51,288 nucleotides of DNA, from contig JAFQFS010000045.1 of NCBI GenBank assembly GCA_017398585.1, positions 1 through 51,288 of the forward strand. The letters are read 5' to 3'. This document shows, piece by piece, positions 21,604 through 50,970 of the stretch. Source of the DNA: Clostridia bacterium (GTDB lineage: Bacteria; Bacillota; Clostridia; Oscillospirales; CAG-272). The number at the start of each line of letters is the position of its first letter. Position 1 is the stretch's first letter. The position numbers and the translations under genes are program-made. The notes beneath the pieces are model-generated. The model did no database searches and was not told the DNA's origin. It saw nothing but the letters and a program-made list of their open reading frames with translations.

Positions 21604-21845
21604 GAGTTTTTCGGGGAAAACCTTTTCCTTAAAAAGGTTTTCCCCGAACCCCTTTCCAAAACCTTTTCGGACAAGAGGACATACAAAGAAAGTGCGGATT
21701 TGGCGCAACGGAATTGCTGTAAAGTTTACAGCCGTTCTGTTTCTACAAATCTGCACTTTCTTTATCTATATTTATAGTCGGAAAGTTTTTGAGGATGGGG
21801 TCCGGGGAAGGAACTTTTTTTAAAAAGTTCCTTCCCCGGAAAACT
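21604..21845. repeat. Composite hairpin repeat 1 (two opposed units and a central hairpin)
   Basis: A left unit pairs CGGGGAAAACCTTTT (21612-21626) with 21632-21646. A right unit pairs a perfect 19-bp stem, 21801-21819 with 21822-21840 (GGGGAAGGAAC/GTTCCTTCCCC). The centre has an 18-bp stem at 21685-21702 and 21746-21763 (AAAGAAAGTGCGGATTTG), enclosing a palindrome, CTGTAAAGTTTACAG. The outer arms, AACCCCTTTCC and GGATGGGGT, are partly complementary. It sits between convergent genes, where the central hairpin could act as a terminator. Confidence 0.88.
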
Positions 21846-25329: not shown

Positions 25330-26898
25330 CTGAAAACTTCCGATAGAAAAGGAACCTTTCTGCAGGGCGCGTTCATCCTCACGATCTCCACGGCGTTCGT
25401 GAAGCTGGCCGGTCTGCTCTTCACCATCCCGATTGCCAATATGCTCGGCGGCGACGGCATGGGTTATTTTTATGCCGCCTACGATATCTACAACATGCTC
25501 GCCGTACTCGCGTCCGCCGGTCTTCCGGTCGCCGTGTCCCGTATGGTCAGTGAAACTCTCGTTTCCGGCAACACTGCCGAAGCAGACCGGATTTATACGA
25601 TTTCCGTCCGGATCTTCACGATTCTCGGTGCCGTCATCGCAGCCGTTATGTTCTTCGGAGCGGACGGTCTTGCCGCTATCATCAAGAATCCCAACGCAGG
25701 CATGTCCATCCGTGCACTGTCGATCACATCATTCTGTGCGTTCGTGATGTCCGCGCTCCGCGGGTACTTCCAGGGACACTCTATTATGAAGTACACCGCC
25801 GTTTCGCAGGTCATCGAAGCGTTTGCGAAACTGTTCTTCGGATGCCTGCTCGCGTACGTCCTGCTGAAGACCGAATATTCGTATGTCGGCGGTTCCGCTG
25901 GTGCGATCCTCGGCGTTTCTCTGGGCGCGGTTCTCGCGGTCGTTTACCTCCTGTTCAACAAGAAGCGTATGGACAGGGACAAGGAAGTCTGCGACCTCCC
26001 CGTGCGCGACACACGTACCATTATCCGTGAACTTTTCCGGATCGCCATTCCCGTTTCCCTCGGTGCGTCCGTCATGAGCCTTGTCAACCTCATCGACACG
26101 ACCGTCATCATGCGCATCCTGCAGGACGGTCTCGGCTATACATACGAACGTGCGAACTGGCTCTACGGTGTGTTCGGCAATGCAAAGAAGATTTTCAACT
26201 TCCCGTCCGCCTTTATCGTACCGTTCTCGGTCAGCATTCTCCCCGTTCTTACCGCTGCATTCACGGCGAAGGATAAGGACGGCGTGCGCACCAATATGGT
26301 GACCTGCTTCAAGTATGCGCTCCTGCTGGCTCTCCCGGCAGGCGTCGGTATTACCGTGCTGGCGGAACCCATTATGCACATCATTTACTTCAACACCCCC
26401 GAAGAAGCAGCGGCCGGTACGCCTCTGCTTGCAATCTTCGGTATTGCGGTCATCCTGTATGCGGTCGTTTCCATCAGCGGTGCCATCCTGCAGGCGTTCG
26501 GACATGTTAACCGTCCGCTTATCAGCCTGACGGTTGGCGGCATCATCAAGTGCGTGCTGAACGCGGTGCTCGTCGGAGTTGAAGCGGTCAATATCGCGGG
26601 TGCGCCTATCGCGACCTGTGTCTGCTACGTTGTGATGATTGGTATGAACGTCTTCTTCCTCCGGAAGTATCTCGCCGGCTGCGGTGCGATCCTCTGGAAC
26701 ACCGTCAAGACGGCGGTGGCCTCCCTTCTCATGGGCGGCTTTGCCTACGGCGCGTACGCGGTGCTTTCCGGTGCGCTCGGCGTGAAAATGGGCGGTCTGG
26801 TCTCCATCATGGGAGCGGTCGTGGTTTACGCGGTACTGGTGATTGTTCTCAAGGTCGTAACGATCAAGGAACTCAAGTCCATGGTAAGACGCGGTTAA
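25330..26898 (+). CDS. Polysaccharide/lipid II flippase, SpoVB/MurJ type (MOP superfamily)
   Basis: A protein of about 522 residues with 14 predicted membrane segments, similar to SpoVB/YtgP-type flippases that move lipid-linked cell-wall or polysaccharide precursors. The conserved family N-terminus (KGTFLQGAFILTISTAFVK) lies upstream of the first GTG. No ATG, GTG or TTG is available between the upstream in-frame TAG and that segment. CTG at 25330 lies 8 nt after GAAGG and is the best start. A second CTG at 25360 also has AAAAGGA 7 nt upstream but would cut the N-terminus. A composite repeat follows the stop. Confidence 0.88.
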   Translation: MKTSDRKGTFLQGAFILTISTAFVKLAGLLFTIPIANMLGGDGMGYFYAAYDIYNMLAVLASAGLPVAVSRMVSETLVSGNTAEADRIYTISVRIFTILGAVIAAVMFFGADGLAAIIKNPNAGMSIRALSITSFCAFVMSALRGYFQGHSIMKYTAVSQVIEAFAKLFFGCLLAYVLLKTEYSYVGGSAGAILGVSLGAVLAVVYLLFNKKRMDRDKEVCDLPVRDTRTIIRELFRIAIPVSLGASVMSLVNLIDTTVIMRILQDGLGYTYERANWLYGVFGNAKKIFNFPSAFIVPFSVSILPVLTAAFTAKDKDGVRTNMVTCFKYALLLALPAGVGITVLAEPIMHIIYFNTPEEAAAGTPLLAIFGIAVILYAVVSISGAILQAFGHVNRPLISLTVGGIIKCVLNAVLVGVEAVNIAGAPIATCVCYVVMIGMNVFFLRKYLAGCGAILWNTVKTAVASLLMGGFAYGAYAVLSGALGVKMGGLVSIMGAVVVYAVLVIVLKVVTIKELKSMVRRG

Positions 26899-26900
26899 AC

Positions 26901-27070
26901 GGAGTTTCGCGGGGAAAACTTTTTTGAAAAAAAGATTTTCCCCGCACCCCTTTCAAAAAACTTTAAACGGATAAACAAAAAATCTGCACCAATCAAAAAA
27001 CAATTCCACAGATTAAAGCTTTTTGAAAAGGGTTCGGGAAAAACTTTTTCTCGAAAAAGTTTTTCCCGAG
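26901..27070. repeat. Composite hairpin repeat 2
   Basis: The left unit pairs GCGGGGAAAACTTTTTT with a slightly diverged AAAGATTTTCCCCGC, ending at 26945. The right unit is a perfect 17-bp stem, 27034-27050 with 27053-27069 (TCGGGAAAAACTTTTTC). The arms ACCCCTTTCAAAAAACTTT and AAGCTTTTTGAAAAGGGT are complementary over most of their length. The central hairpin is degenerate (AAATCTGCACC remains on one side). It lies between the flippase and GDPD genes. Confidence 0.85.
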
Positions 27071-27100
27071 AAATTATATTTCTATAGAAGGAGAAAACCT

Positions 27101-27934
27101 ATGAAATTTGATATTCGCGAAGCGGCTTCCGAACGCGTGATTCTCTGTGCGCACCGCGGGGTATGGGGCGGCAACATCCCCTGCAACAACCTTCTCGCGT
27201 ACGACATCGCACTGGCTCAGGGCGCGGACATGGTCGAGATCGACGTGACCATGGCGGGCGACGGCGAATTGTTCATCTTCCATCCGCACATGGAACGCCG
27301 CCACATCGGCAAGGACGTTCACCTCGAAGACATGACCACCGAGGAGATCAAAAAGCTCCGCTACTGCAACTACGACGGTTCCGAAACCGAGATCGGGCTG
27401 AACACGCTTGACGAATTGCTCGAACACCTCAAGGGACGCTGCTTCATCAACGTTGACAAGTTTGGCGACCATCCTGCGGAGATCATCGAAAAGATCAAGC
27501 GCCACGACATGAAGGATCAGATCATCCTCAAGTGCAGCCCGAATCCCGCGCAGCTTGACATCATAGAAACCTACGCGCCGGATATTCAGTTCCTGCCCGT
27601 CATTTCGAAGGACGGAGGTGTTCACGAAATGATGAAGACCAGAAATATCAACTACATCGGTTCCGAACTGCTTTTCAAGACCATGGACGACGAACTCGCG
27701 TCCGCAGAGTACCGCGAAAAACTTCATAAGGACGGCAAGCTCTGTTGGGTCAACACCATCGTGTACAGCTATAAGGCGGTCCTCGCGGCGTTCCATTCCG
27801 ACGACACCGCTCTCGCAGGGGATCCCGAATACGGCTGGGGCTGGTGTGCCGACAACTTCGACATTATCCAGACCGACTGGATTGGTCCGCTGTCCGCATA
27901 CCTCGAAAAGACCGGACGGAGATTCAGAAAATAA
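27101..27934 (+). CDS. Glycerophosphodiester phosphodiesterase family protein
   Basis: A 277-residue TIM-barrel protein with the GDPD signature: AHRG near residues 17-20 and VEIDVTMAGDGELFIFHP with the metal-binding Glu and Asp. It probably hydrolyses glycerophosphodiesters to glycerol-3-phosphate and an alcohol. No signal peptide is seen. ATG at 27101 follows AGAAGGAG by 8 nt, so it uses a normal ribosome binding site despite the repeat just upstream. A longer frame that reads through the repeat is rejected. Confidence 0.9.
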   Translation: MKFDIREAASERVILCAHRGVWGGNIPCNNLLAYDIALAQGADMVEIDVTMAGDGELFIFHPHMERRHIGKDVHLEDMTTEEIKKLRYCNYDGSETEIGLNTLDELLEHLKGRCFINVDKFGDHPAEIIEKIKRHDMKDQIILKCSPNPAQLDIIETYAPDIQFLPVISKDGGVHEMMKTRNINYIGSELLFKTMDDELASAEYREKLHKDGKLCWVNTIVYSYKAVLAAFHSDDTALAGDPEYGWGWCADNFDIIQTDWIGPLSAYLEKTGRRFRK

Positions 27935-27937
27935 AAT

Positions 27938-27995
27938 AATTGGGGAAACCTTTTTTGCAAAAAAGGTTTCCCCAAACCCCTTCCCAAAAATCCTT
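27938..27995 (-). repeat. Single hairpin repeat unit, reverse orientation
   Basis: A perfect 36-nt palindrome at 27940-27975, with half-site TTGGGGAAACCTTTTTTG, followed by the arm ACCCCTTCCCAAAAA. The stem has AAACC/GGTTT in place of AAAAC/GTTTT in other units, so both strands changed together. It lies between the GDPD and pepF genes. Confidence 0.9.
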
Positions 27996-28028
27996 ATACT
28001 AAATAAAAAAATAGTCAGGTTTAGATTT

Positions 28029-29804
28029 ATGAGAAACAGAAATGAAATTCCCGCGGAACTGAAGTGGGATTTTACGCATATATTTGTGACTCACGAAGAC
28101 TGGGAAAAGGCGTTTGCGGAATGTGAAGCGGCGATTCCGTCCGTTGCGGCGGTCAAAGGAACTCTCGGTCAGTCTGCGGAAGCGCTGTACAATGCCTACG
28201 AGACGATGTACGGGTTCTCCGAAAAGTTCTCGCGTGTTTCCTGTTATGCATTCCTTGCGAAGTCTGCAGACGGTTCCGACACCGCCGCGCAGGTCATGAG
28301 TGACCGCGTACGCATGCTCGGTGTCAAGTATGGTACGGCAATGGCGTTCTTTACGCCGGAACTGCTGGAAATTCCCGAGGAGACCCTCGCGGAATTCCTG
28401 AAGTACGAACCGCTGCAGAAATATGCGCACATCATTGAAAACGAAACCCGTCTGCGGGCGTACATCCTCGACGAAAAGAGCGAACAGCTCCTTGCGAAGG
28501 TTTCGAAGATCACCGGTATTCCGAAGTCAACGTACGATATGTTCACAAACGTTGAAATGTCGTTCCCGAAGACCCTTGCGGAAAACGGCGAAGAAGTGGA
28601 ACTGACCCGCGGCATGTTCGGCATGTTCCGCGAATCCGGCGACCGCAGGGTACGTGAATCGGCATTTGAGGCCATGTTCGGTACGTACGGCAAGTACATC
28701 AACACGTTCGCGTCTCTCTACGGCGGCAGCGTCAAGAAGGACAATATGGGCGCGGACATCCGCGGCTATTCCTCCGCACGTGCGGCGTCCCTCGCGGGAA
28801 GCAACGTTCCCGAAGCGGTTTACGACGCTCTCGTGGAAGCCGTGCACGATGCGATCCCGTCGATGGTGAAGTACCTTGACCTGCGCAAGAAGGCGCTCGG
28901 TCTGGAAACACTCGACGTATTCGACCTCTATACCCCGATGGTTGCCGACGTGGATTATCCGATGCCGTACGAAAACGCGTGCGAACTCGTCAAGAAGGCA
29001 GTCGCACCGCTCGGTCAGGCGTACGTTGATGTGATCGACCGCGCGTACCACGAAAACTGGATCGACGTTTACGAAACGCCCGGCAAGGATTCCGGTGCGT
29101 TCTCGATGGGCGTTCATGGCGTTCACCCGTACGTCATGATGAACTTCAACGGTACTCTCGACCACGCGTTCACCCTCGCGCACGAGCTTGGTCACGCGAT
29201 GCACTCCTATCTGTCTTCCGAAGCACGTGATTATGCAAACCACGGATATCACCTTGTGGTTGCCGAAGTGGCATCTACCTGCAATGAGGTTCTGCTGACC
29301 AAGTATCTTCTCGCGAACGAAACGGACCGCAAGCGCCGTGCCTACATTCTCAATCACTTCCTCGAAGGCTTCCGTACGACCGTATTCCGTCAGACCCTGT
29401 TTGCGGAATTCGAACAGAAGACCCATGAACTCGAAGCATCCGGCACGCCGCTGACCGCCGAATGTATGTGTGATCTGTATGCGTCCCTCGTGAAGCAGTA
29501 CTATCCGAACGCGGAATTCCGTGACGTTGTGAAGTACGAATGGGCGTTCATCCCGCATTTCTATCGTGCGTTCTATGTTTATCAGTACGCGACCGGCTTC
29601 TCTTCCGCCGTTGCGATCGCATCGAATATCCTCGAAACCGGTGATCCGTCGAAGTATCTTGAATTCCTCGCGACCGGCGGTTCCGACTATCCGATCAACG
29701 AGCTGAAGATCGCCGGCATCGACCTCACCTCTCCCGAAGTCGTCAAGAATGCAATGAAAGTCTTCGACGAAACCATCGACGAACTCGCCGAATTGTTGGG
29801 GTGA
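28029..29804 (+). CDS. pepF: Oligoendopeptidase F (M3B metallopeptidase)
   Basis: A 591-residue cytoplasmic peptidase. The M3 zinc motif HELGHAMHSYLS lies near residues 386-397, with the third ligand Glu in VVAEVASTCNEVLL about 27 residues later. The length is typical of PepF (about 600). It degrades medium-length peptides, so it serves protein turnover and nutrition. Upstream ribosome binding is weak (CAGG about 9 nt before ATG). An upstream in-frame extension reads through the repeat and is rejected. Confidence 0.95.
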   Translation: MRNRNEIPAELKWDFTHIFVTHEDWEKAFAECEAAIPSVAAVKGTLGQSAEALYNAYETMYGFSEKFSRVSCYAFLAKSADGSDTAAQVMSDRVRMLGVKYGTAMAFFTPELLEIPEETLAEFLKYEPLQKYAHIIENETRLRAYILDEKSEQLLAKVSKITGIPKSTYDMFTNVEMSFPKTLAENGEEVELTRGMFGMFRESGDRRVRESAFEAMFGTYGKYINTFASLYGGSVKKDNMGADIRGYSSARAASLAGSNVPEAVYDALVEAVHDAIPSMVKYLDLRKKALGLETLDVFDLYTPMVADVDYPMPYENACELVKKAVAPLGQAYVDVIDRAYHENWIDVYETPGKDSGAFSMGVHGVHPYVMMNFNGTLDHAFTLAHELGHAMHSYLSSEARDYANHGYHLVVAEVASTCNEVLLTKYLLANETDRKRRAYILNHFLEGFRTTVFRQTLFAEFEQKTHELEASGTPLTAECMCDLYASLVKQYYPNAEFRDVVKYEWAFIPHFYRAFYVYQYATGFSSAVAIASNILETGDPSKYLEFLATGGSDYPINELKIAGIDLTSPEVVKNAMKVFDETIDELAELLG

Positions 29805-29807
29805 GCT

Positions 29808-30011
29808 TCCGGGGAAAAACTTTTTTTCAAAAAGTTTTTCCCCGAACCCCTTTTCAAAAACTTTCAAACAAATGTGTTGACAAAGTTCCGGTGCAGACCG
29901 TAAGAAAAGGGGAAACGAACAATCCGCACTCACTCAATCAAGTCATATAGATTGAAGTTTTTTGAAAGGAGTGCGGGAGGAACTTTTTTTCAAAAAGTTT
30001 CCCCCGCGAAA
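29808..30011. repeat. Composite hairpin repeat 4, with an apparent split Shine-Dalgarno
   Basis: The left unit pairs CGGGGAAAAACTTTTT (29810-29825) with 29829-29844. The right unit pairs GCGGGAGGAACTTTTT with AAAAAGTTTCCCCCGC (ending 30007) with two imperfect positions. The arms ACCCCTTTTCAAAAACTTTC and GAAGTTTTTTGAAAGGAGT are complementary. The right arm contains AAAGGAG. The MBL gene ATG lies 10 nt after the hairpin and has no other Shine-Dalgarno. Confidence 0.85.
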
Positions 30012-30017
30012 TCCATT

Positions 30018-30734
30018 ATGCGTATTACCTTTATCGGCACCAGCCATGGCGTACCGGAACCGGAACGCAGATGCTCCTGTACCATGATCGAAACCGCAGG
30101 CCGGTACTATTTCATTGACATGGGTACACAGGCGATCGAAGACCTCATCCACCGCGGCATTTCCATCAACGCGGTCAAGGGTATCTTCATCACCCATCCT
30201 CACGGTGACCATACGAACGGTCTGATTTCCTTCGTCGATCTTGCGAACTGGTACTTCAAGACGTCGGAACCGCAGGTATACCTGCCCGACGAAAGCCTTG
30301 TCACCGGTATGAAAGCATGGATCTCCGGCGGAAAGGATCTTCGGGAAGGTATCGGTCTGCACGTTTACGAAGCGGGTGTGATTTACGACGACGGCTTTGC
30401 AAAGGTCACGGCGATTGCGACCCAGCACTGTCATCATTCCCACGCGTTCCTTTTTGAAGCGGAAGGGAAGAAGATCCTCTTCACCGGCGACCTCGGACAT
30501 CCCACGAAGGACTTCCCGCAGGTGGCATTTGAGGAAGAACTCGACCTCATCATCGTGGAATCCGCACACTTCTCCTCCGACGCGACCGAGGCTGTCCTTG
30601 CGAACGCGAAGGTGAAGCGGGTTCTTCACAACCACATCAGCCCCCGCTGGGCAGAAGACCTCGCGAGAATGGCGAGCCGTGAACATCACTACCAGTACGG
30701 CAAGGCGTTCGACGGCATGGAAGTCGTGATGTAA
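30018..30734 (+). CDS. MBL-fold metal-dependent hydrolase (RNase Z-like)
   Basis: A 238-residue metallo-beta-lactamase-fold protein. The metal motif is THPHGDHTNG near residues 57-66. Further ligands lie in QHCHHSHAFLF, FTGDLGHP and the C-terminal HNHISPR. The layout resembles RNase Z/ElaC-like hydrolases, but substrate recognition elements are not identifiable. ATG at 30018 has no adjacent Shine-Dalgarno. AAAGGAG lies beyond a repeat hairpin. The metallophosphoesterase gene begins 12 nt after the stop, so the two form an operon. Confidence 0.85.
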   Translation: MRITFIGTSHGVPEPERRCSCTMIETAGRYYFIDMGTQAIEDLIHRGISINAVKGIFITHPHGDHTNGLISFVDLANWYFKTSEPQVYLPDESLVTGMKAWISGGKDLREGIGLHVYEAGVIYDDGFAKVTAIATQHCHHSHAFLFEAEGKKILFTGDLGHPTKDFPQVAFEEELDLIIVESAHFSSDATEAVLANAKVKRVLHNHISPRWAEDLARMASREHHYQYGKAFDGMEVVM

Positions 30735-32623: not shown

Positions 32624-32692
32624 AGATTAAAGCTTTTTGAAAGGGGTTCGGGGAAAACTTTTTCTCGAAAAAGTTTTCCCCGAGAAACACCA
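32624..32692 (+). repeat. Hairpin repeat unit in the hisZ leader (split-RBS candidate)
   Basis: A perfect 17-bp stem, 32648-32664 with 32667-32683 (TCGGGGAAAACTTTTTC). The arm carries AAAGGGG at 32640-32646, one base before the stem. The hisZ ATG is 9 nt after the stem, with no Shine-Dalgarno in those 9 nt. Confidence 0.9.
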
Positions 32693-33796
32693 ATGACCCA
32701 GAACATCCTCCGCAAAGAAGAGAAAGCCATCTTCGACCTGCGCGAACTGTACGAAACGCACGGGTATAAAAAGTACAAAATGTCCAAATTTGAGGAGTAC
32801 GACCTCTATGCCGACAACCGCAGTTTTCTTGCGGAAGGCAACATCATCACCTTCAACGACACTCACGGCAAGCTCCTCGCTCTCAAGCCGGACGTTACGC
32901 TTTCCATCGTGAAGAACGCGGCCTCCGGCGAACGCATCAAGGAATACTATAACGAAAACGTCTACCGCGCCATCGACGGCGAGTACCGCGAGATCATGCA
33001 GGTCGGACTTGAGTGCATCGGGGAAGCCGATCTTTACTCCACCTGCGAAGTTATCATGCTCGCGAAGAAGAGTCTTGAATGCATCTCGAAGGATTACATT
33101 CTCGACCTCTCCAACGCGGCGTTTGTCGGCGGGCTGTTCGAGAACCGCAGCATCCCTTACGATGTCCGCGAAGACCTGCTCACCTGTGTGGCGGGCAAGA
33201 ATCCGCACGACCTCGCACGCATCTGCCGGGAAAACGGCATCGACGACGCGATCTGTACAAAGCTGACGACCATTTCCGAAACCTACGGCAAGGTAGAAGA
33301 CGTGATTGCCGCCCTCCGTCCTCTCGCGGAAAACGATACCATGACCTCCGCACTCGACGAACTCGAAGCCATCTACAACTTTATGACCGCCGTCGGCGAA
33401 GGAGAAAACCTCCGTCTCGACTTCTCGCTCATCAACGACATCAGCTACTATGACGGCATTATTTTCCGCGGCTACATCGACGGTGTGGCACGAGGTGTGC
33501 TTTCCGGCGGACGGTACGACAAGCTGCTCGACAAAATGGGCAAGCATACCGGCGCGATCGGCTTCGCGATCTACATGAATACGCTTGACCTTTACTTTGA
33601 AGATAAAAACGACTACGATGTCGATATCCTCATCACCTACGATGATACGGCAGACCTTGCCGCTCTCACGAGAACCGTGAAGATGCTCACAGGCGGCGGA
33701 CGCAGTGTCCGGGTACAGAAGTCCGGCGACGGATCGCTCAAATGCCGCGAATACTTCCGTTTCGGGGAAAGGGGACTTGAAATTGAAACGACTTAA
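32693..33796 (+). CDS. hisZ: ATP phosphoribosyltransferase regulatory subunit
   Basis: A 367-residue HisRS-like protein that activates short-form HisG and mediates histidine feedback. It keeps class II synthetase-like motifs (LKPDVTLSIVKNAASGERIKEY; MQVGLECIGEADL; GGRYDKLLDKMG) but lacks tRNA-binding parts. It is first in the his operon and overlaps hisG by 14 nt. The ATG is preceded by a hairpin repeat rather than a normal ribosome binding site. Confidence 0.95.
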   Translation: MTQNILRKEEKAIFDLRELYETHGYKKYKMSKFEEYDLYADNRSFLAEGNIITFNDTHGKLLALKPDVTLSIVKNAASGERIKEYYNENVYRAIDGEYREIMQVGLECIGEADLYSTCEVIMLAKKSLECISKDYILDLSNAAFVGGLFENRSIPYDVREDLLTCVAGKNPHDLARICRENGIDDAICTKLTTISETYGKVEDVIAALRPLAENDTMTSALDELEAIYNFMTAVGEGENLRLDFSLINDISYYDGIIFRGYIDGVARGVLSGGRYDKLLDKMGKHTGAIGFAIYMNTLDLYFEDKNDYDVDILITYDDTADLAALTRTVKMLTGGGRSVRVQKSGDGSLKCREYFRFGERGLEIETT

Positions 33797-34421
33797 CATC
33801 GCTCTGCCGAAGGGAAGACTCGGCGAAAAGGTCTACGAAATGCTCGAGAACCTCGGCTATGGCTGTCCCGGTCTGACCGACGGTTCGCGCAAACTCATTT
33901 TTGAAGACGACGGAGGCATCACCCGTTACTTCTGGGTCAAGCCTTCCGATGTAGATATTTACGTGGAACGCGGGGCAGCGGACATCGGCGTCGTCGGACG
34001 CGACATCCTGCTTGAACACAACCCCGATGTGTACGAACTCCTTGACCTCGGCTTCGGCAAGTGCCGCATGTGTGTTGCCGGAATGGCCGGTTACGAACCG
34101 AACCCCAACCGTACGCTCCGCGTGGCGACGAAGTTCGCGAACATTGCGCGGTCGTATTACGCATCCAAGGGACGCGAGATTGAGATTATCAAGCTGAGCG
34201 GTTCCATCGAGCTTGCTCCGATCCTCGGCATGTCCGATGTTATCGTGGACATTGTAGAGACCGGTTCGACTCTCAAGGAAAACAATCTGGAAGTCAAGGA
34301 GACTGTGTGCGACATCAGCGCGCGTCTTATCGTGAACAAGGCAGCATACCGGTTCAAGAACGAAGAGGTGCGCGGACTTGTCGAAAAAATCAATGCGATA
34401 TACAGCAATAAGGTGAACTGA
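33783..34421 (+). CDS. hisG: ATP phosphoribosyltransferase, short form
   Basis: A 212-residue catalytic subunit for the first step of histidine synthesis (ATP + PRPP to phosphoribosyl-ATP). The short form lacks the C-terminal regulatory domain, consistent with dependence on HisZ. Visible motifs are ALPKGRLGEKVYEML, DIGVVGRDILLE and the PRPP loop DIVETGSTLKEN. TTG at 33783 lies 8 nt after AAAGGGG and is chosen over TTG 33777, which is too close to it. It overlaps the end of hisZ by 14 nt. Confidence 0.95.
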   Translation: MKRLNIALPKGRLGEKVYEMLENLGYGCPGLTDGSRKLIFEDDGGITRYFWVKPSDVDIYVERGAADIGVVGRDILLEHNPDVYELLDLGFGKCRMCVAGMAGYEPNPNRTLRVATKFANIARSYYASKGREIEIIKLSGSIELAPILGMSDVIVDIVETGSTLKENNLEVKETVCDISARLIVNKAAYRFKNEEVRGLVEKINAIYSNKVN

Positions 34422-35705
34422 ATGATCAAGACATACAACATCAGAGACCTCTCCGTGGACGAGATCCTCGCGAGAGAAGAAAACGCCGTTGACGTGTCCG
34501 GCATCGTCGCGGCTGTTATCGAAAATATCCGGAAAAACGGTGACGCGGCTCTCGCGGAATATACCGAAAAGTTCGATAAGGTAAAGCTCGACTCCATTGT
34601 CGTTACCCGTGAGGAGATCGACGAAGCGGCGGCTTCCCTTGATGAGGATTTCCTGAACATCCTCCGCGATGCGGCGGCGAACATCGAACACTACCACAAG
34701 TGCCAGATCCGTCAGGGATACGCCGTTACCGACAAGGAAGGCGTCATCCTCGGGCAGCGTGTTACCCCGATCGAAAAGGTCGGCGTGTACGTTCCGGGCG
34801 GTTCCGCTCCGCTTCCGTCGTCCGTGCTGATGAATATCATTCCCGCGAAGATTGCGGGGGTTCCGTTCATCGCCATGGCGACCCCTCCGGGACCGGACGG
34901 TAAGGTCAATCCCGCCATTCTCGCGGCGGCTGACATCGCCGGTGCGGATGTGATCTACAAGATGGGCGGCTCCCAGGCGATCGCTGCTCTCGCATACGGC
35001 ACAGAAACCGTTACCGCGGTACACAAGATTGTCGGTCCCGGCAACGCGTTCGTTGCGGAAGCAAAGCGTCAGGTATTCGGCAAGGTCGGCATTGACATGA
35101 TCGCCGGTCCGAGCGAGATCATCGTTCTCGCGGACGGTACCTGTGACCCCACCGTCGTTGCGGCGGATATGCTCTCGCAGGCGGAACACGACCGTCTCGC
35201 ATCCGCGATCCTCGTCACGGATTCCGAAGAGCTTGCCGCAAAGGTTGCGGACGAACTGGAAATCCAGATCCCGCAGCTCTCCCGCGCCGATATCGCCCGC
35301 GCGTCCATTGACGTGTACGGCAAGATCATCATTACCGACACGTTCAAGCGTGCCATCGATATGGTAAACGAACTGGCACCCGAACACCTTGAAGTTATGG
35401 TGGACGACCCGTTTGCGGTTCTTTCCGAAATCAAGAACGCCGGTTCCATCTTTCTTGGTAAGAACTGTCCCGAACCGCTCGGTGACTATTTTGCCGGCAC
35501 GAACCATGTTCTTCCGACCTCCGGCACAGCGAAGTTTTCCAGTCCCCTGTCGGTCGACGACTATGTAAAGAAGTCTTCCTATATTTATTATACCCGCGAA
35601 GCTCTCGCAAAGGAAGCATGGCGTGTCAACGAATTCGCGAAGCGCGAACAGCTCACTGCGCACGCAAAGAGCGCCGTTGTGCGTTTCGATAAGGACGGTA
35701 ACTGA
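34422..35705 (+). CDS. hisD: Histidinol dehydrogenase
   Basis: A 427-residue enzyme that oxidises L-histidinol to L-histidine in two NAD-dependent steps. Typical segments are VPGGSAPLPSSVLMN, AGPSEIIVLAD, SQAEHDRLASAILVT and ELAPEHLEVM, the last two containing conserved active-site and zinc-binding His and Glu residues. It starts directly after the hisG stop, with AAGGTG upstream. Confidence 0.97.
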   Translation: MIKTYNIRDLSVDEILAREENAVDVSGIVAAVIENIRKNGDAALAEYTEKFDKVKLDSIVVTREEIDEAAASLDEDFLNILRDAAANIEHYHKCQIRQGYAVTDKEGVILGQRVTPIEKVGVYVPGGSAPLPSSVLMNIIPAKIAGVPFIAMATPPGPDGKVNPAILAAADIAGADVIYKMGGSQAIAALAYGTETVTAVHKIVGPGNAFVAEAKRQVFGKVGIDMIAGPSEIIVLADGTCDPTVVAADMLSQAEHDRLASAILVTDSEELAAKVADELEIQIPQLSRADIARASIDVYGKIIITDTFKRAIDMVNELAPEHLEVMVDDPFAVLSEIKNAGSIFLGKNCPEPLGDYFAGTNHVLPTSGTAKFSSPLSVDDYVKKSSYIYYTREALAKEAWRVNEFAKREQLTAHAKSAVVRFDKDGN

Positions 35706-35706
35706 C

Positions 35707-36720
35707 ATGATTCCGTTTGTCAGAAAAACAGATGCCCTTGTCACCTGCGAGGAAATGCAGTTGATTTACGAAAAAATCCGTACTCCGAAAAAACTCGGTG
35801 CGGTTATTAAGTGGGAAAACGATTTTGTCGACTGTCCGAGCATTTTTCGCCACGGCGACCGGTTTTATATGTACTTCATCGCGATCTCCAAAGACACCCG
35901 TGTCTCCGGTTACGAAACCCACCTCGCGAAGTCCGCAGACCTCGTGAACTGGGAATACGTCGGACCGGTCTTCCGCCGCAATGACCTCAATCACTGGGAC
36001 AGCAAGCAGGTCGCCGGTTATGCCGCATTCTTTGATACGGAGTTCGGCGGCAGCAACGGACTGGTGAAGGTGAACGACAGCTATTACATCACTTACCTCG
36101 CGGGCAACAGCGACGGCTACGAACCCGATCCGCTTCTTATGGGCATGGCGAAAACATCCGATCCCACAGCGGCGGACAGCTTCATCCGGTTCGAAGACCC
36201 GATTCTCACCCCGCAGGACGCGGACAGCCGTCCGAAGGAAACGAAGACCCTGTACAAGAGCTACGTTTTCACGGATCCGAAAAATTCCACCGGACATCCT
36301 TATGTCAATTGCTTCAACGCGAAGGGCGAGGACAACCGCGAACGTCTTTTCCTCGCTGTATCGGATGACGGCGAACACTGGGAACGCTGGGGCGAACACG
36401 CGATCATCGACCTCGCGAGCGACGGTCCGTGCGATTTCATCAGCGGTGACCCGCAGATCGTGCTGATTGACGACATTTACGTTATGTTCTTCTTCCGTTT
36501 CGGATCCGGCGCGGGTGCATACGACAGCTTCGCATGTTCGAAGAACCTCGTCGACTGGACGGTCTGGGACGGCGAACCGCTTATCAAGCCCGAATTCGCC
36601 TGGGAAAACGTCCATGCGCACAAGCCGTGGGTGATCAAACACGACGGCAGGGTCTACCACTTCTACTGCGCGGTCAACAACAAAAACGAACGGTATATTG
36701 CACTCGCCGTCTCGGAATAA
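35707..36720 (+). CDS. GH43/GH130-like five-bladed beta-propeller glycosidase
   Basis: A 337-residue protein with repeated beta-propeller blades, each containing patterns such as DRFYMYFIAISKD, DSYYITYLAG and DDIYVMFFFRF, as in GH43, GH117 or GH130 enzymes. Acidic residues such as DCPSIF early in the chain fit a catalytic Asp. No signal peptide is seen. It begins 1 nt after the hisD stop, with AAGGACGG upstream, so it sits inside the his operon although no role in histidine synthesis is known. hisC follows after a hairpin repeat. The exact family is uncertain. Confidence 0.72.
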   Translation: MIPFVRKTDALVTCEEMQLIYEKIRTPKKLGAVIKWENDFVDCPSIFRHGDRFYMYFIAISKDTRVSGYETHLAKSADLVNWEYVGPVFRRNDLNHWDSKQVAGYAAFFDTEFGGSNGLVKVNDSYYITYLAGNSDGYEPDPLLMGMAKTSDPTAADSFIRFEDPILTPQDADSRPKETKTLYKSYVFTDPKNSTGHPYVNCFNAKGEDNRERLFLAVSDDGEHWERWGEHAIIDLASDGPCDFISGDPQIVLIDDIYVMFFFRFGSGAGAYDSFACSKNLVDWTVWDGEPLIKPEFAWENVHAHKPWVIKHDGRVYHFYCAVNNKNERYIALAVSE

Positions 36721-36741
36721 ACAAATTTGATTTCTGTAACA

Positions 36742-36802
36742 GATTAAAAGTTTTTGAAAGGGGTGCGGGGAAAACTTTTTTCAAAAAGTTTTCCCCGCAG
36801 AA
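36742..36802 (+). repeat. Hairpin repeat unit before hisC (split-RBS candidate)
   Basis: A stem pairs GCGGGGAAAACTTTTT (36765-36780) with AAAAAGTTTTCCCCGC (36783-36798). The arm has AAAGGGG one base before the stem. The hisC ATG is 17 nt after the stem and lacks a local Shine-Dalgarno. Confidence 0.9.
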
Positions 36803-36815
36803 CCACATTTCATCT

Positions 36816-37880
36816 ATGAGCAGATTTTTAGATACAAAATTCGCGGCACTTGAGGCCTATGTGCCGGGTGAGCAGCCGCGTGACAAGAAATACATCAAAC
36901 TCAACACCAACGAATCCCCGTTCCCGCCCTGTGCCGCTGTCATCGAAGCGATGAACGGCGCGGCGGCCGCAGATCTCCGTCTGTATTCCGATCCGACGTC
37001 CGTCGGTGTCAAGCGTGCGATTGCGGATTTCTACGGTGTCGCTCCGGAATATGTGTTCGTTTCGAACGGTTCCGACGAATCGCTGAACTTCCTCTTCATG
37101 GCGTTCTGCGAAAACGGTGCGGCGTATGCGGATATTACCTACGGTTTCTATCAGGTCTTTGCCGATCTTTATCAGAAGAAGACCACCGTCGTTCCGCTGG
37201 AGGACGATTTCACCCTCGATCCCGCCAAGCTCAAAGCGACGACGGAAACTCTCTTCATCGCCAATCCGAACGCGCCGACCGGCATCTGCTTCACGCCCGA
37301 CGTGATCGAGTCGCTCGTGACCGCCAATCCCGAACGTCTGATCGTCGTAGACGAAGCGTACATCGACTTCGGAGGCGAATCCGTCGTTCCGCTGACGCAG
37401 AAGTACGACAACCTCGCCGTTGTGCAGACGTTCTCGAAGTCCCGCCAGCTCGCAGGTGCGCGTCTCGGTTTCACCATCGCGAATCCTGCGATCATCGAGG
37501 GACTTGAGAAGATCAAATATTCCACGAACCCCTACAACGTCAACCGCCTGACTCAGCTCTGCGGTGCGCTGTCCATGCAGGACCGTGCGTATTTCGATAA
37601 GACACGTACGGCGATTATCGAAAACCGTGCGTACACCGTCACTGAGCTGAAAAAGCGCGGCTTCACGATGACCGATTCCATGACCAACTTCATTTTTGCA
37701 AAGTCCGACAAAATTTCCGGCAAGGCGTATTACGACGGACTGCGCGAACGCGGCGTTCTCGTGCGCTACTTCGGCAAGGCGCGCATTTCGGATTATGTCC
37801 GCATCACGATCGGTTCGCGCGAAGAAATGGAAGCGCTCGTTGCGGCAACGGACGATATTCTTGCGAAAGCGGGGGAATGA
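36816..37880 (+). CDS. hisC: Histidinol-phosphate aminotransferase
   Basis: A 354-residue class I/II PLP enzyme that transaminates imidazole acetol phosphate. LNTNESPFPP is at the N-terminus, ANPNAPTG follows, and the PLP lysine lies in TFSKSRQLAGARLG near residue 208. The closing RITIGSREEME segment binds substrate phosphate. The ATG at 36816 follows a hairpin repeat. The gene overlaps or abuts hisB. Confidence 0.96.
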   Translation: MSRFLDTKFAALEAYVPGEQPRDKKYIKLNTNESPFPPCAAVIEAMNGAAAADLRLYSDPTSVGVKRAIADFYGVAPEYVFVSNGSDESLNFLFMAFCENGAAYADITYGFYQVFADLYQKKTTVVPLEDDFTLDPAKLKATTETLFIANPNAPTGICFTPDVIESLVTANPERLIVVDEAYIDFGGESVVPLTQKYDNLAVVQTFSKSRQLAGARLGFTIANPAIIEGLEKIKYSTNPYNVNRLTQLCGALSMQDRAYFDKTRTAIIENRAYTVTELKKRGFTMTDSMTNFIFAKSDKISGKAYYDGLRERGVLVRYFGKARISDYVRITIGSREEMEALVAATDDILAKAGE

Positions 37881-37882
37881 CG

Positions 37883-38473
37883 ATGGCACGTACGGCTGAA
37901 ATTGTAAGAAATACATTCGAAACGCAGATCTCACTCAAGCTCAACCTCGACGGTACGGGCAAGTCGGAGATCGATACCGGCTGCGGCTTTCTCAACCATA
38001 TGCTGATCCTGTTTGCAAAGCACGGACGGTTCGACCTGAACGTCAAGTGTACTGGCGATACGGACGTTGACTACCACCACACGACTGAGGACATCGGCAT
38101 CGCACTCGGCGACGCGTTCAAGAAAGCGCTTGGTGACAAGCGCGGCATTACCCGTTATGCCGACATCATCCTCCCGATGGACGAATCGCTGATCCTTGCC
38201 GCTGTGGATGTGTCCGGACGTGCGCATCTGACATACGACGTGATCATGCCGACCGAAAAGGTCGGGGATTTTGATACCGAACTGGCGAAGGAATTCTGGC
38301 TCGGCTTCATCCGTGCGGCGGATATCACCCTCCACGTCCGGATGCTGTCCGGCGAAAATTCGCACCATATTATCGAGGGCATCTTCAAGGCGGTTTCCCG
38401 CGTATTCTCGAAGGCAGCCGCAATCGATCCTCGTTACGCGAACGAGATCCCCTCCACCAAGGGTGTGCTTTAA
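37883..38473 (+). CDS. hisB: Imidazoleglycerol-phosphate dehydratase
   Basis: A 196-residue monofunctional dehydratase (sixth step). The two metal-binding repeats are visible as HHTTED near residue 55 and NSHHIIEG near 155. No phosphatase domain is fused, unlike enterobacterial HisB. GGGGG lies 7 nt before ATG at 37883. An in-frame ATG at 37877 overlaps the hisC stop but is too close to the GGGGG. Confidence 0.96.
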   Translation: MARTAEIVRNTFETQISLKLNLDGTGKSEIDTGCGFLNHMLILFAKHGRFDLNVKCTGDTDVDYHHTTEDIGIALGDAFKKALGDKRGITRYADIILPMDESLILAAVDVSGRAHLTYDVIMPTEKVGDFDTELAKEFWLGFIRAADITLHVRMLSGENSHHIIEGIFKAVSRVFSKAAAIDPRYANEIPSTKGVL

Positions 38474-38509
38474 TCGAATGTTTGAGAAAATCAATTTTGG
38501 AGAAAACCT

Positions 38510-39127
38510 ATGATAGCGATTGTTGACTACGGTGTCGGGAATATTTTTTCCCTTTGCTGTTCCTTTAAATACATCGGCGCGGATGCCGTCCTGACTTCCG
38601 ACGCAGACGTGATCCGGAAAGCCGACCGTGTTTTGCTCCCCGGCGTCGGTGCATTCGGTGACGCGGCGTTCAAGCTGCGGGAATCCGGTCTTTGGGATGT
38701 TGTTGTGGAGGAAAGCGTACGCAAGCCCCTCCTCGGCATCTGCCTCGGTATGCAGCTCCTGCTCGAGCGCAGCTTCGAGTACGGCGAACATCAGGGGCTC
38801 GGACTGGTGAAAGGCTCCGTTGTGCCGATCTCCGGCGTGATCCCCGCGGACTATAAGGTTCCGCACATCGGCTGGAATGCGCTGCATTTCCCGAAGGACA
38901 AACCGAAATCCCCGATTTTTGAATCCATCAGCGAAGGCGACCACGTTTACTTCGTTCACTCCTACTATGCGGCGGACTGTGACGCGAACGTCATTGCCAG
39001 CGCGGAATACGGCGCGGAACTCACGGCAGCCGTGGGTGACGGCAAGTACGTCTACGGTGTGCAGTTCCATCCCGAAAAGAGCGGCGAAGTCGGTCTGAAC
39101 ATCCTCCGCGCATTCGCGAAACTTTAA
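38510..39127 (+). CDS. hisH: Imidazole glycerol phosphate synthase, glutaminase subunit
   Basis: A 205-residue class I glutamine amidotransferase. The nucleophile Cys lies in GICLGMQLL near residue 78, and the His/Glu pair in VQFHPEKSG near 186. It supplies ammonia to HisF. GGAG lies 8 nt before ATG, so this gene uses a normal ribosome binding site. Confidence 0.97.
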   Translation: MIAIVDYGVGNIFSLCCSFKYIGADAVLTSDADVIRKADRVLLPGVGAFGDAAFKLRESGLWDVVVEESVRKPLLGICLGMQLLLERSFEYGEHQGLGLVKGSVVPISGVIPADYKVPHIGWNALHFPKDKPKSPIFESISEGDHVYFVHSYYAADCDANVIASAEYGAELTAAVGDGKYVYGVQFHPEKSGEVGLNILRAFAKL

Positions 39128-39138
39128 TTTTCACCCAG

Positions 39139-39199
39139 TATAAAGGTTTTTGAAAGGGGTTTGGGGAAAACTTTTTCCTTAAAAAAGTTTTCCCCAAGA
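39139..39199 (+). repeat. Hairpin repeat unit before hisA (split-RBS candidate)
   Basis: A 16-bp stem pairs TTGGGGAAAACTTTTT (39161-39176) with AAAAAGTTTTCCCCAA (39182-39197). The outer pairs are TT/AA where other units have TC/GA or GC/GC. The arm has AAAGGGG. The hisA ATG is 14 nt downstream, with no local Shine-Dalgarno. Confidence 0.9.
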
Positions 39200-39211
39200 A
39201 ATATCAATGCA

Positions 39212-39925
39212 ATGAAAATTTTTCCTGCCATTGACTTATCCGAAGGCTGTGCCGTCCGTCTGCTGAAGGGCGATTACGCACAGAAAACCGTATATTCCGA
39301 TGATCCGGTGTCCGTTGCGAAGGGATTCCGCGAAGCGGGCGGCGAGATTCTCCATCTCGTTGACCTTGACGGCGCGAAGGCCGGTTATGCGGCGGCAGCG
39401 GAGATCGTTGCGAAGATCGCGGCGGAATCCGGCATGTTTGTTGAAATCGGCGGCGGCATCCGCAATGCAGAGACTGTGAAGCAGTACCTCGATGCGGGCG
39501 TCGGACGCGTGATTCTCGGGACGGCGGCGCTCCGTGACCGTGTGTTCCTCGAAGAAATGATCCGCCGGTACGGTGACAGGATCGCGGTCGGCGTGGACAT
39601 CAAGAACAGCAATGTAGCCGTCCAGGGATGGACCGAAGACGACGGCGTGAAGTACACGGACTTCCTCGACTACCTTGAAAGAATCGGGGTCGCGACCGTG
39701 ATCTGTACCGACGTGTCGAAGGACGGCGCGATGCAGGGGACGAATCGCGAACTCTACCGTGAACTTGCCGCAAAGTATTCCTTCCGCGTGGTCGCATCGG
39801 GCGGTGTGTCCACTCTCGACGACATCAAGGCACTCGCGAAGATGGACATCTATGGTGCCATCGTCGGACGTGCGCTTTACAACGGCGCGATTGACCTCAA
39901 GGAAGCCATTGCTGCAACGAAATAA
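39212..39925 (+). CDS. hisA: ProFAR isomerase
   Basis: A 237-residue TIM barrel that isomerises ProFAR to PRFAR. Catalytic Asp8 lies in FPAIDLSEG and the second Asp in CTDVSKDGAM near residue 169. Phosphate-binding segments IGGGIRNAETV and ASGGVSTLDDI are present. ATG at 39212 is chosen; an upstream ATG at 39207 is out of frame. The preceding sequence is a hairpin repeat unit. Confidence 0.96.
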   Translation: MKIFPAIDLSEGCAVRLLKGDYAQKTVYSDDPVSVAKGFREAGGEILHLVDLDGAKAGYAAAAEIVAKIAAESGMFVEIGGGIRNAETVKQYLDAGVGRVILGTAALRDRVFLEEMIRRYGDRIAVGVDIKNSNVAVQGWTEDDGVKYTDFLDYLERIGVATVICTDVSKDGAMQGTNRELYRELAAKYSFRVVASGGVSTLDDIKALAKMDIYGAIVGRALYNGAIDLKEAIAATK

Positions 39926-39940
39926 CAGACCTGTTTTTAT

Positions 39941-40022
39941 AGATTAAAAAGGTTTTGGAAAGGGTGCGGGAAACCGGGAGGTTCACGGAGTGAAACTCCA
40001 TTCCTCAAAAAGGTTTTCCCGC
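39941..40022 (+). repeat. Hairpin repeat unit before hisF with an enlarged loop
   Basis: The base of the stem pairs GCGGGAAACC with GGTTTTCCCGC, one A longer on the 3' side. The loop is replaced by about 30 nt that include TTCAC and GTGAA and can fold by itself. The arm has GGAAAGGG. The hisF ATG is 11 nt after the stem and has no local Shine-Dalgarno. Confidence 0.8.
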
Positions 40023-40033
40023 TAAAAAAACAT

Positions 40034-40795
40034 ATGATTACAAAGAGAATTATCCCCTGTCTGGACGTCAAGAACGGACGGGTCGTAAAGGGCGTGAACT
40101 TCCAGGGAGTGTCCGATGTGTCCTCTCCGGTTGAGCTTGCCGAGTATTACAGCCGCGCCGGTGCGGATGAACTGGTGTTTTACGACATCACCGCGTCGGT
40201 CGAGGGACGTTCGCTGTTCTGCGACATCCTCCGTGAGACCGCATCGAAGGTATACATTCCCCTGACGGTCGGCGGCGGGATCAATACCATTGAAGACTTT
40301 GACCGCGTGCTGAAGTGCGGCGCGGACAAGGTCAGCGTCAACTCCGGCGCGATCCGGAATCCAAACCTCATTGAGGAAGCAGCGAAGGTTTACGGCGACC
40401 AGTGCGTCGTTCTCTCCTGCGATATCAAGCGTGTGGACGGAGAATTCCGTCTGTTCGCAAAGGGTGGACGTGTGGACACCGGCATCGAAGCGATCCAGTG
40501 GATCAAAGACGGCGTGGCGCGCGGTGCGGGTGAAATCGTCGTCAACAGCATCGATACGGACGGCGTAAAGAAGGGATTTGACCTCGAAATGCTCCGTCAG
40601 GTCATTGACGCGGTCAACGTGCCGGTCATCGCATCCGGCGGCGCGGGTTCTGCTGAAGACTTTGTGACGCTGTTCAATGAAATTCCCGAAATGGACGCGG
40701 GTCTTGCCGCATCAATTTTCCACTTCGGCGAAGTAAAAATCAACGAACTCAAGAAAATTATGGCGGATAACGGCATCAACGTCCGTCTGAACTGA
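40034..40795 (+). CDS. hisF: Imidazole glycerol phosphate synthase, cyclase subunit
   Basis: A 253-residue TIM barrel that joins HisH-derived ammonia to PRFAR, giving IGP and AICAR. Catalytic Asp11 lies in IPCLDVKNGRVVKG and the second Asp in NSIDTDGVKKG near residue 176. PLTVGGGIN and ASGGAGSAEDF bind phosphate. The ATG follows a hairpin repeat unit. Confidence 0.97.
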   Translation: MITKRIIPCLDVKNGRVVKGVNFQGVSDVSSPVELAEYYSRAGADELVFYDITASVEGRSLFCDILRETASKVYIPLTVGGGINTIEDFDRVLKCGADKVSVNSGAIRNPNLIEEAAKVYGDQCVVLSCDIKRVDGEFRLFAKGGRVDTGIEAIQWIKDGVARGAGEIVVNSIDTDGVKKGFDLEMLRQVIDAVNVPVIASGGAGSAEDFVTLFNEIPEMDAGLAASIFHFGEVKINELKKIMADNGINVRLN

Positions 40796-41465: not shown

Positions 41466-41525
41466 GTGATTGGGGAGGAACTTTTTGCAAAAAGTTCCTC
41501 CCCAAACCCCTCTTCAAAAAACTTT
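41466..41525 (-). repeat. Single hairpin repeat unit after hisIE, reverse orientation
   Basis: A perfect 36-nt palindrome at 41470-41505, half-site TTGGGGAGGAACTTTTTG, followed by the arm ACCCCTCTTCAAAAAAC. The GGGGAGGAAC/GTTCCTCCCC pair differs from other units on both strands. It separates the his operon from the hydrolase gene. Confidence 0.9.
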
Positions 41526-41579
41526 ATACGGAATGAATGGACATAGTATGTGCAAATTTTGGGGAAGGAGGCGTTTTTT

Positions 41580-42653: not shown

Positions 42654-42770
42654 AAGAAAGTACAGTGTGAATTTACCGTAAAATCCGCACTGTACTTTCT
42701 TTTTTTCACAGTATGAAGTTTTTTGAAAGGGGTTCGGGGAAAACTTTTTTTCAAAAAAAGTTTTCCCCGA
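42654..42770. repeat. Terminator hairpin plus one repeat unit (site 10)
   Basis: A 14-bp stem pairs AAGAAAGTACAGTG (42654-42667) with CACTGTACTTTCTT (42688-42701), followed by TTTTT, a good terminator for the hydrolase gene. It resembles the central hairpin of composites 1 and 11. A right unit follows, with a perfect 18-bp stem at 42734-42751 and 42753-42770 and arm GAAAGGGGT. No left unit is present. Confidence 0.88.
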
Positions 42771-42780
42771 GAAAAATATA

Positions 42781-50756: not shown

Positions 50757-50970
50757 TTTCTCGGGGAAACCTTTTTTCAGGAAAAAGGTTTCCCCGAACC
50801 CCTTCCCAAAACCTTTTCAAACGAATAAAAAGACAAGGTGCAGTGCAAATTTTTCGTCAGATTTGCACTGCACTTTGTGGTTATATTTGTCTGAAAGTTT
50901 TTGAAGAGGGGTTCGGACGAGATTTGCTTCGCAAACTCGGAAACTTTTTTCAAAAAGTTTCTCCCCGCAA
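50757..50970. repeat. Composite hairpin repeat 11, with a nested hairpin insertion
   Basis: The left unit pairs TCGGGGAAACCTTTTT (50761-50776) with 50782-50797. The central 18-bp stem pairs ACAAGGTGCAGTGCAAAT (50833-50850) with ATTTGCACTGCACTTTGT (50861-50878), with one G-U pair. The right unit is interrupted after GGTTCGG by a self-complementary insert, CGAGATTTGC-TTC-GCAAACTCG, then resumes with AAACTTTTTT and AAAAAGTTTCTCCCCGC. It sits between convergent trkH and the YbjQ-family gene. Confidence 0.85.

Follow-up and report, generated by a model that had tools for sequence, protein, structure and literature searches.

Repeats carrying a hairpin close upstream of start codons in contig JAFQFS010000045.1 of an uncultured gut bacterium of the Clostridia (assembly GCA_017398585.1; the window, analysed over its full 51,288 nt) probably act as portable, hairpin-bridged split ribosome-binding sites (RBS) that were spread by a dispersed repeat. 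Judged from the sequence, we give this reading a probability of about 0.8. The repeat is approximately 60 nt long, is found in the genome of the window (G000) and in two sister species (G004 and G033), and consists of TTAAAGTTTTTGAAAGGGG, about one base, and a hairpin of 16-17 bp. In the proposed mechanism, the 5' flank (GAAAGGGG and variants) would pair with the anti-Shine-Dalgarno (anti-SD) sequence of the 16S rRNA, while the hairpin stays folded and is accommodated on the 30S subunit. Counted through the hairpin, SD and AUG are a median of 46 nt apart, a path that folding would reduce to 10 nt (median), and a gene equipped in this way would need no local SD. In the G000 lineage, hisA and hisF would have lost their local SDs where the repeat arrived. 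That the hairpins supply split RBS was first put forward in a preliminary description of this DNA, and a distance rule for local SDs, the upkeep of the flank and the local SDs of orthologues all speak in favor of it.

Five sites of this kind had been described in the window, at hisZ, hisC, hisA, hisF and a gene of the metallo-beta-lactamase (MBL) fold, and all five were found again at their positions on the plus strand. They share one anatomy, namely an SD, one base, a hairpin of 35-57 nt, an interval of 9-16 nt that contains no SD, and the ATG (at hisC, SD and hairpin adjoin directly if the stem is taken to include its outer U-A pair). In the MBL-fold gene, the motif GAAAGGAG (29964-29971) precedes a hairpin at 29973-30007, a 10-nt linker and the ATG at 30018; in G004 and G033, the orthologous gene has GAAAGGGG in this position, and the stems differ yet still pair by eye. 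The hisZ motif, GAAAGGGG at 32639-32646 with a flank duplex of -11.5 kcal/mol, is followed by a hairpin at 32648-32683, a 9-nt linker and the ATG at 32693, an arrangement kept in G004 and diverged in G033. The same motif stands before hisC at 36756-36763 (hairpin 36764-36799, 16-nt linker, ATG 36816; without a direct counterpart in G004 and G033) and before hisA at 39152-39159 (hairpin 39161-39197, 14-nt linker, ATG 39212; absent in G004, G033 and a further genome, G015). The hisF site has GGAAAGGG at 39957-39964 and a branched hairpin with a long loop at 39966-40022, which lies 11 nt before the ATG at 40034 and is absent in G004 and G033. Ordinary local SDs were seen at hisB, hisH, hisD and hisIE, again in agreement with the preliminary description.

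Local SDs are mostly missing where the repeat is near and mostly present where it is more distant. The survey covered G000 (178 contigs, 74% complete, contributing 787 kb), G004 and G033, pooled to 2.15 Mb. Gene starts were called SD-blind with a home-made caller, starts with less than 150 nt of upstream sequence were excluded, and a local SD was defined as a duplex of at most -4.5 kcal/mol, a limit of our own choice. Only 4/41 starts with a family hairpin at 8-19 nt carry a local SD, as opposed to 46/53 with the hairpin at 20-60 nt and 1311/1624 without a repeat within 60 nt. Fisher tests yielded 1e-14 for near versus far and 8e-22 for near versus none, values to be taken as descriptive, since neither paralogous repeat copies nor the three sister species count as independent observations. 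The preliminary description had specified that its proposal would fail if repeat-linked starts had normal SDs as often as others; in this sample the starts closely preceded by the repeat do not. The near/far cut at 19 nt was likewise our choice; it was set on G000 together with roughly half of what became the G004 sample, and G033 was fetched after it had been set. By genome, local SDs occur in 3/26 near and 23/27 far starts of G000, 0/11 and 13/14 in G004, and 1/4 and 10/12 in G033. Two findings go beyond the preliminary description: a normal SD mostly remains in place where the copy is over 19 nt away from the start, and the majority of copies at gene borders lie at 3' ends, as reported below. 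Room alone does not explain the rule, because an SD turned up in 57% of 8200 length-matched linker windows drawn from genes without a repeat. The 41 near starts were defined by a stem rule that passes over variants having long loops or mismatches, hisF and the MBL-fold gene among them; 17 further hairpins outside this rule lie 8-19 nt from starts and were divided by eye into 7 family variants and 10 unrelated hairpins. A local SD accompanies 1/7 of the variants, which brings the near total to 5/48, and 9/10 of the unrelated hairpins. Thus, a hairpin as such is no explanation either. A different repeat, with long arms (GACTAAGGACTAAGGGTGAATGACTA...), was seen upstream of several G004 genes (L041-L046 and L049-L051; contigs C99 and C47); 4/4 cases with this repeat 13-18 nt before the start have a local SD, and the single case at 8 nt is without one.

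The flank of these near copies is SD-like throughout. For the 37 near starts that have no local SD of their own, the predicted flank duplex is at or below -5 kcal/mol in 37, -8 kcal/mol in 34 and -10.5 kcal/mol in 27. At the same limits the counts are 209, 156 and 79 of the 252 placements at 3' ends, and 39, 24 and 14 of the 53 distant starts. Where the flank ends in GGG, AAAGGGG or an equivalent is intact in 32/37 near, 13/31 distant and 73/185 3'-end copies, and with an arm ending in AAAC it is intact in 26/26 near versus 44/64 3'-end copies. In a gap-free alignment, near copies surpass 3'-end copies in conservation by a mean of about 0.2 at five variable G/A positions and about 0.1 at six T positions, one T position gaining 0.28. 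The four near starts that do have a local SD show flank duplexes of -11.5, -8.7, -4.8 and -0.5 kcal/mol, and the flank is weakened in several copies beside a local SD (the window gene at 27101, C154:10965 and C79:38966). Two G000 starts, C119:6850 and C176:55626, are preceded by tandem hairpins, a small second one having joined the main stem, and GAAAGGGG lies 5' of both; the G004 orthologue of C176:55626 has the same SD, and its single hairpin lies 14 nt from the start. On the flank side of the main stem, an additional small hairpin (GACTTCCTGCGGAAGTC-like or AAGTTGCaaaGCAACTT) was also noted at L027 (C168:35858), L031 (C176:52424 and 55644), L038 (C87:27992) and L067 (C119:6850). By eye, the reversed flank resembles the 5' stem arm in most copies (TTTTTGAAAGGGG versus GGGGAAAACTTTTT; for example, window 32632-32664), and flank variants seem to be coupled to stem variants.

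The stem is predicted to be paired, with a probability of at least 0.88, at every one of the 37 near starts that lack a local SD. If the hairpin is counted, the SD register lies at a median of 46 nt from the start, which is too far by the usual rule. With the hairpin excised, the median is 10 nt (5th-95th percentile 5-14), compared with 3 nt (0-7), in the same register, in ordinary genes with strong SDs (n = 1067). The preliminary description had given effective distances of 10-18 nt, to be compared with 11 nt in phage T4 gene 25. Ribosomes may well bridge the folded hairpin and pair with the flank SD. We considered, and rejected, a switch between flank and hairpin, which on reading the sequence was judged much weaker than the main stem.

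Comparison with related species supports a replacement of local SDs. The hisA start is preceded by a local SD in G004 (TAAGGAGGACGACACG-ATG), G033 (TAAGAAGGGGGAAGAACC-ATG) and also G015, and the hisF start in G004 (AAAGGAGTAAATCT-ATG) and G033 (CAAGGAGTAAATT-ATG), with AAGGAG at the hisA/hisF junction in both. In G000 the local SDs of both genes are gone and the repeat is in their place. Because the sisters and, at hisA, G015 share the repeat-free state, the repeat is most simply a newcomer in G000. By contrast, hisZ and the MBL-fold gene have an SD plus hairpin in all three species, the stems in G033 being strongly diverged and by eye still pairing. Among 28 orthologue pairs, some genes of which occur in two pairs and some classes of which were assigned by eye, 15 keep SD and hairpin (3 of them by eye against the script's label), 7 have a local SD and no repeat, and in 1 the repeat lies further off and is joined by a local SD; two more are the hisC cases and three lack both features (see below). 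Three rows were dropped from this table, as the aligned place had no start codon or the upstream sequence was short. Across 80 wider his loci, usable starts are preceded by a hairpin at 19 nt or less in 0/72 hisA, 0/79 hisF and 0/62 hisC genes, and local SDs are present at 72/72, 79/79 and 58/62, respectively. Of the wider hisZ starts, 1/54 has an unrelated hairpin along with a local SD, and 52/53 of the others have a local SD. The preliminary description had suggested looking in related genomes for a loss of local SDs behind the hairpin. At the near copies a local SD is absent in 37/41 cases, and orthologues without the repeat mostly have local SDs.

The repeat itself is abundant. A 301-base query around the hisZ copy gave 87 blastn matches in its own genome, including stem-only matches on the opposite strand. 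A covariance model built from five window copies gave at least 150 matches in G000 (150 of 2290 candidates were scored), and a wider search gave at least 90 each in G000, G004 and G033 and 0 to 66 in other genomes of the genus. The stem is kept by pairing and not by sequence: 13/16 pairs have changed on both sides among 130 matches (E 1e-9, 787 kb of G000), and the diverged hisZ and MBL stems by eye still pair. The covariation score is 0.391, compared with a mean of 0.138 after shuffling (reached by 0/500 shuffles) and at most 0.133 when the pairing is slid. Paired cells make up 98.9% of the stem in the 130-copy alignment of 5'- and 3'-end copies. All these stem figures come from that alignment, which was fitted to the model and so leans toward it. 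Near-identical copies and differences between species suggest that the repeat has moved. No Rfam model matched the window at its gathering score, and the 8 sub-threshold matches (E up to 1) were all to microRNA or snoRNA models. An intrinsic terminator was rejected, since the window copies have no U run on either strand, the stem being followed by GAAA-like or ACCCC-like sequence. A REP element with RAYT/Y1 was also rejected, because the one transposase family searched, Y1 (PF01797), had 0 matches in G000 (the control was positive in 5/14 genomes); as G000 is only 74% complete, the absence of this transposase is unproven. The hisC copy had no match in a plasmid or a phage collection, and an origin from either was set aside.

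Most members of the family are 3'-end or intergenic palindromes, and fewer lie close to starts. Placements no more than 60 nt from a gene border number 252 at 3' ends and 94 at starts (346 in the three genomes; a copy flanked by two close genes may be counted for both). The earlier proposal is supported as to the supply of split RBS by the repeat, with the correction that this role belongs to a minority of the copies. On the side facing away from the gene, the flank ends in GGG at most 4 nt from the hairpin in 185/252 3'-end, 40/41 near and 31/53 distant copies. Readable intergenic regions with two copies comprise 39 in head-to-head arrangement with hairpins outward ('<>'), none of the type '><' and 3 in the same direction. 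In five more distant genomes, 30 loci were inspected and, by our own reading, 19 could be placed, 15 at a 3' end and 4 only at starts, leaving 11 unplaced. One of these loci (L242) shows the split arrangement beyond the three sisters: upstream of hisH in G034, the repeat lies 15 nt from the start with a good flank and no local SD. A local SD is present at L243 (34 nt) and L264 (31 nt) and absent at L269 (39 nt). L266 was counted as a 3' end, yet a start of doubtful position was called 16 nt away. The family might even be a spreading regulatory system, in which 5' copies act as split RBS and capture genes on insertion, 3'-end copies expose the complement, CCCCUUUC, in mRNA and could pair in cis or trans with GAAAGGGG sites, and the state of the hairpin or such pairing tunes some 100 genes together; this extension strikes us as rather unlikely.

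Given that most copies sit at 3' ends, the family might be only a 3'-end or intergenic palindrome, terminator-like, RNA-stabilizing or REP-like selfish DNA, whose copies near starts are bystanders. The 252/346 border placements and 15/19 placeable loci in the distant genomes would fit this explanation. Yet bystander insertions would keep or destroy local SDs at random, and the near copies are without one in 37/41 cases; some of them precede usually essential genes, and the unrelated hairpins at the same distance retain a local SD in 9/10. We thus consider a bystander role very unlikely. The starts themselves could also have been mis-assigned, the true ones lying elsewhere behind ordinary SDs, as the caller was home-made and 16/37 near starts have an in-frame ATG, GTG or TTG within 150 nt upstream (14 TTG, 1 GTG, 1 ATG). 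This is highly improbable, since orthologues align at the same start, most repeat-free ones have a local SD there, and 21/37 starts have no such upstream alternative in frame.

Initiation might instead be SD-independent. A short A-rich linker would then be enough, the hairpin would keep the start open, and the flank would be kept for other reasons such as ancestry or head-to-head pairing. Many linkers are indeed A-rich, structure prediction leaves the start largely unpaired (median 0.65), and the flank is also frequently intact at 3' ends (73/185). However, 1311/1624 starts without a repeat have an SD, and the flank SD is better kept near starts than elsewhere, even within one stem class. Moreover, the SD precedes the whole hairpin pair at the two starts with tandem hairpins, and the flank is weakened where a local SD exists, as at 27101, C154:10965 and C79:38966. 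We judge SD-independent initiation unlikely, and prefer the split RBS.

Several observations weigh against the split RBS, in addition to the non-independence of the copies and the upstream in-frame codons already mentioned. Even with the hairpin excised, the distance from SD register to start exceeds that of the clade's ordinary genes by approximately 7 nt, a second correction to the earlier proposal; the extra length may let the SD pass the foot of the helix on the 30S subunit. The flank SD is unpaired in silico at a median of 0.44 versus 0.51 for ordinary local SDs, and on these same values we rejected its sequestration as an objection. Seven of the 53 distant starts have no local SD (two of them with the repeat at 21 and 22 nt), 2/37 near starts have the weaker flank GAAGATGGGG, and a good flank (-11.5 and -8.7 kcal/mol) is retained in 2/4 near starts with a local SD. 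Since the intact motif is also common in 3'-end copies with a GGG flank (73/185), it was not shaped only as an SD; it probably predates this use and was then kept near starts. Three of the 28 orthologue pairs have neither repeat nor local SD. In G004 and G033, hisC has only a weak local signal (-5.1 kcal/mol), which leaves the hisC case unclear. Finally, an exact pattern for the 3' end of the 16S rRNA was not found in 25 genomes of the genus, probably because rRNA is missing from the assemblies, and the anti-SD was therefore assumed from the native SDs.

Pfam searches of 10 of the 26 near genes of G000 identified MreC, a Cons_hypoth95 methyltransferase, an EngB-like small GTPase of the 50S-binding type, an NFACT protein, a LeuA-type synthase, a diaminopimelate dehydrogenase, a xylose-isomerase-like TIM barrel, a class I tRNA synthetase, a glycosyl/pyruvyl transferase and a FabD-like acyl transferase. 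The synthetase, encoded at C176:55626, has 1053 amino acids and a DUF5915 domain and is probably IleRS. The near genes thus probably include ileS, fabD, mreC and leuA, names that beyond the Pfam matches are our own reading. Several of the scanned genes are usually essential.

The closest known systems are genes 25 and 38 of phage T4, where an intervening RNA structure likewise brings a distant SD to working distance, shortening the SD-AUG spacing from 27 to 11 nt and from 22 to 5 nt, respectively; destabilizing the structure lowers initiation, and the gene 25 arrangement arose in close T-even phages (PMC3014915). Unlike these single phage genes, a dispersed chromosomal repeat serves many unrelated genes here, with stems of 16-17 bp and, in two cases, an extra hairpin. 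In Escherichia coli thrS, a long hairpin remains folded when it is accommodated, but this concerns one gene, the upstream part is a 24-nt single-stranded region essential for binding (PMC3936740), and the hairpin serves autoregulation according to the title of a paper cited there. REP, BOX/RUP and MITEs resemble the family as short dispersed intergenic hairpin repeats, a likeness drawn partly from general knowledge, but in the available parts of PMC3049150, PMC3733652 and PMC10969869 they have no described role in supplying SDs. A literature search for split, bridged or accommodated sites and for SD repeats, which left most subscription journals outside, returned single-gene cases and no repeat family in this role, as far as the available texts go.

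If the split RBS is real, a repeat has made routine what is so far known from a few single genes, in some cases with loss of the native SD and in some before usually essential genes. The 26 near starts in 787 kb of G000 extrapolate to approximately 100 in the whole genome. They would constitute a natural test set for the accommodation of folded hairpins by the 30S subunit and for the permitted SD-to-start geometry, and would illustrate how a repeat can rewire translation starts. Start-site predictors that use the last 20 nt alone would misread such genes.

Among the his genes, NCBIfam models matched hisC, hisA, hisF, hisG, hisD, hisH and hisIE above cut-off; hisZ matched its own model below the curated cut-off, and the best model for the MBL-fold gene, ribonuclease Z, was far below it. 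The nearest named relatives of HisF (at most 82%) are mostly from uncultured Clostridia and Oscillospiraceae of herbivore guts. A gene at 35707-36720, between hisD and hisC and also present in G004 and G033, is presumably of a glycoside-hydrolase type. By the covariance model, the window has 13 full copies, the hisF variant and a weak partial copy at 50891. An internal contrast case is the plus-strand copy at 27012-27073, whose hairpin (27034-27069) stops 31 nt short of the 27101 gene; its flank is weakened to GAAAAGGG, and the gene has a local SD, GAAGGAG at 27087-27093. This copy is head-to-head with the minus-strand copy at 26905-26967, at the 3' end of the gene ending at 26898, and the MBL copy is likewise paired with 29805-29867 (minus strand), which follows the gene ending at 29804. 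Further 3'-end copies lie on the minus strand at 21607-21669, 27936-27998 (flank GGGAAGGGG), 41466-41528 (after hisIE, flank GAAGAGGGG) and 50757-50819, and on the plus strand, at 3' ends of minus-strand genes, at 21779-21843 (flank GAGGATGGGG) and 42712-42774. The inner flanks of head-to-head copies look complementary, both in the window (26905-27073 and 29805-30011) and in the 39 intergenic regions. A further long palindrome, ACAAAGAAAGTGCAGATTTGAAG..., was noticed between some paired copies, at L026 (15733-15815), L029 (8508-8590) and L035 (19528-19606). Such palindromes are perhaps the actual two-way terminators, and a shorter, related one is found in the window at 50833-50878.

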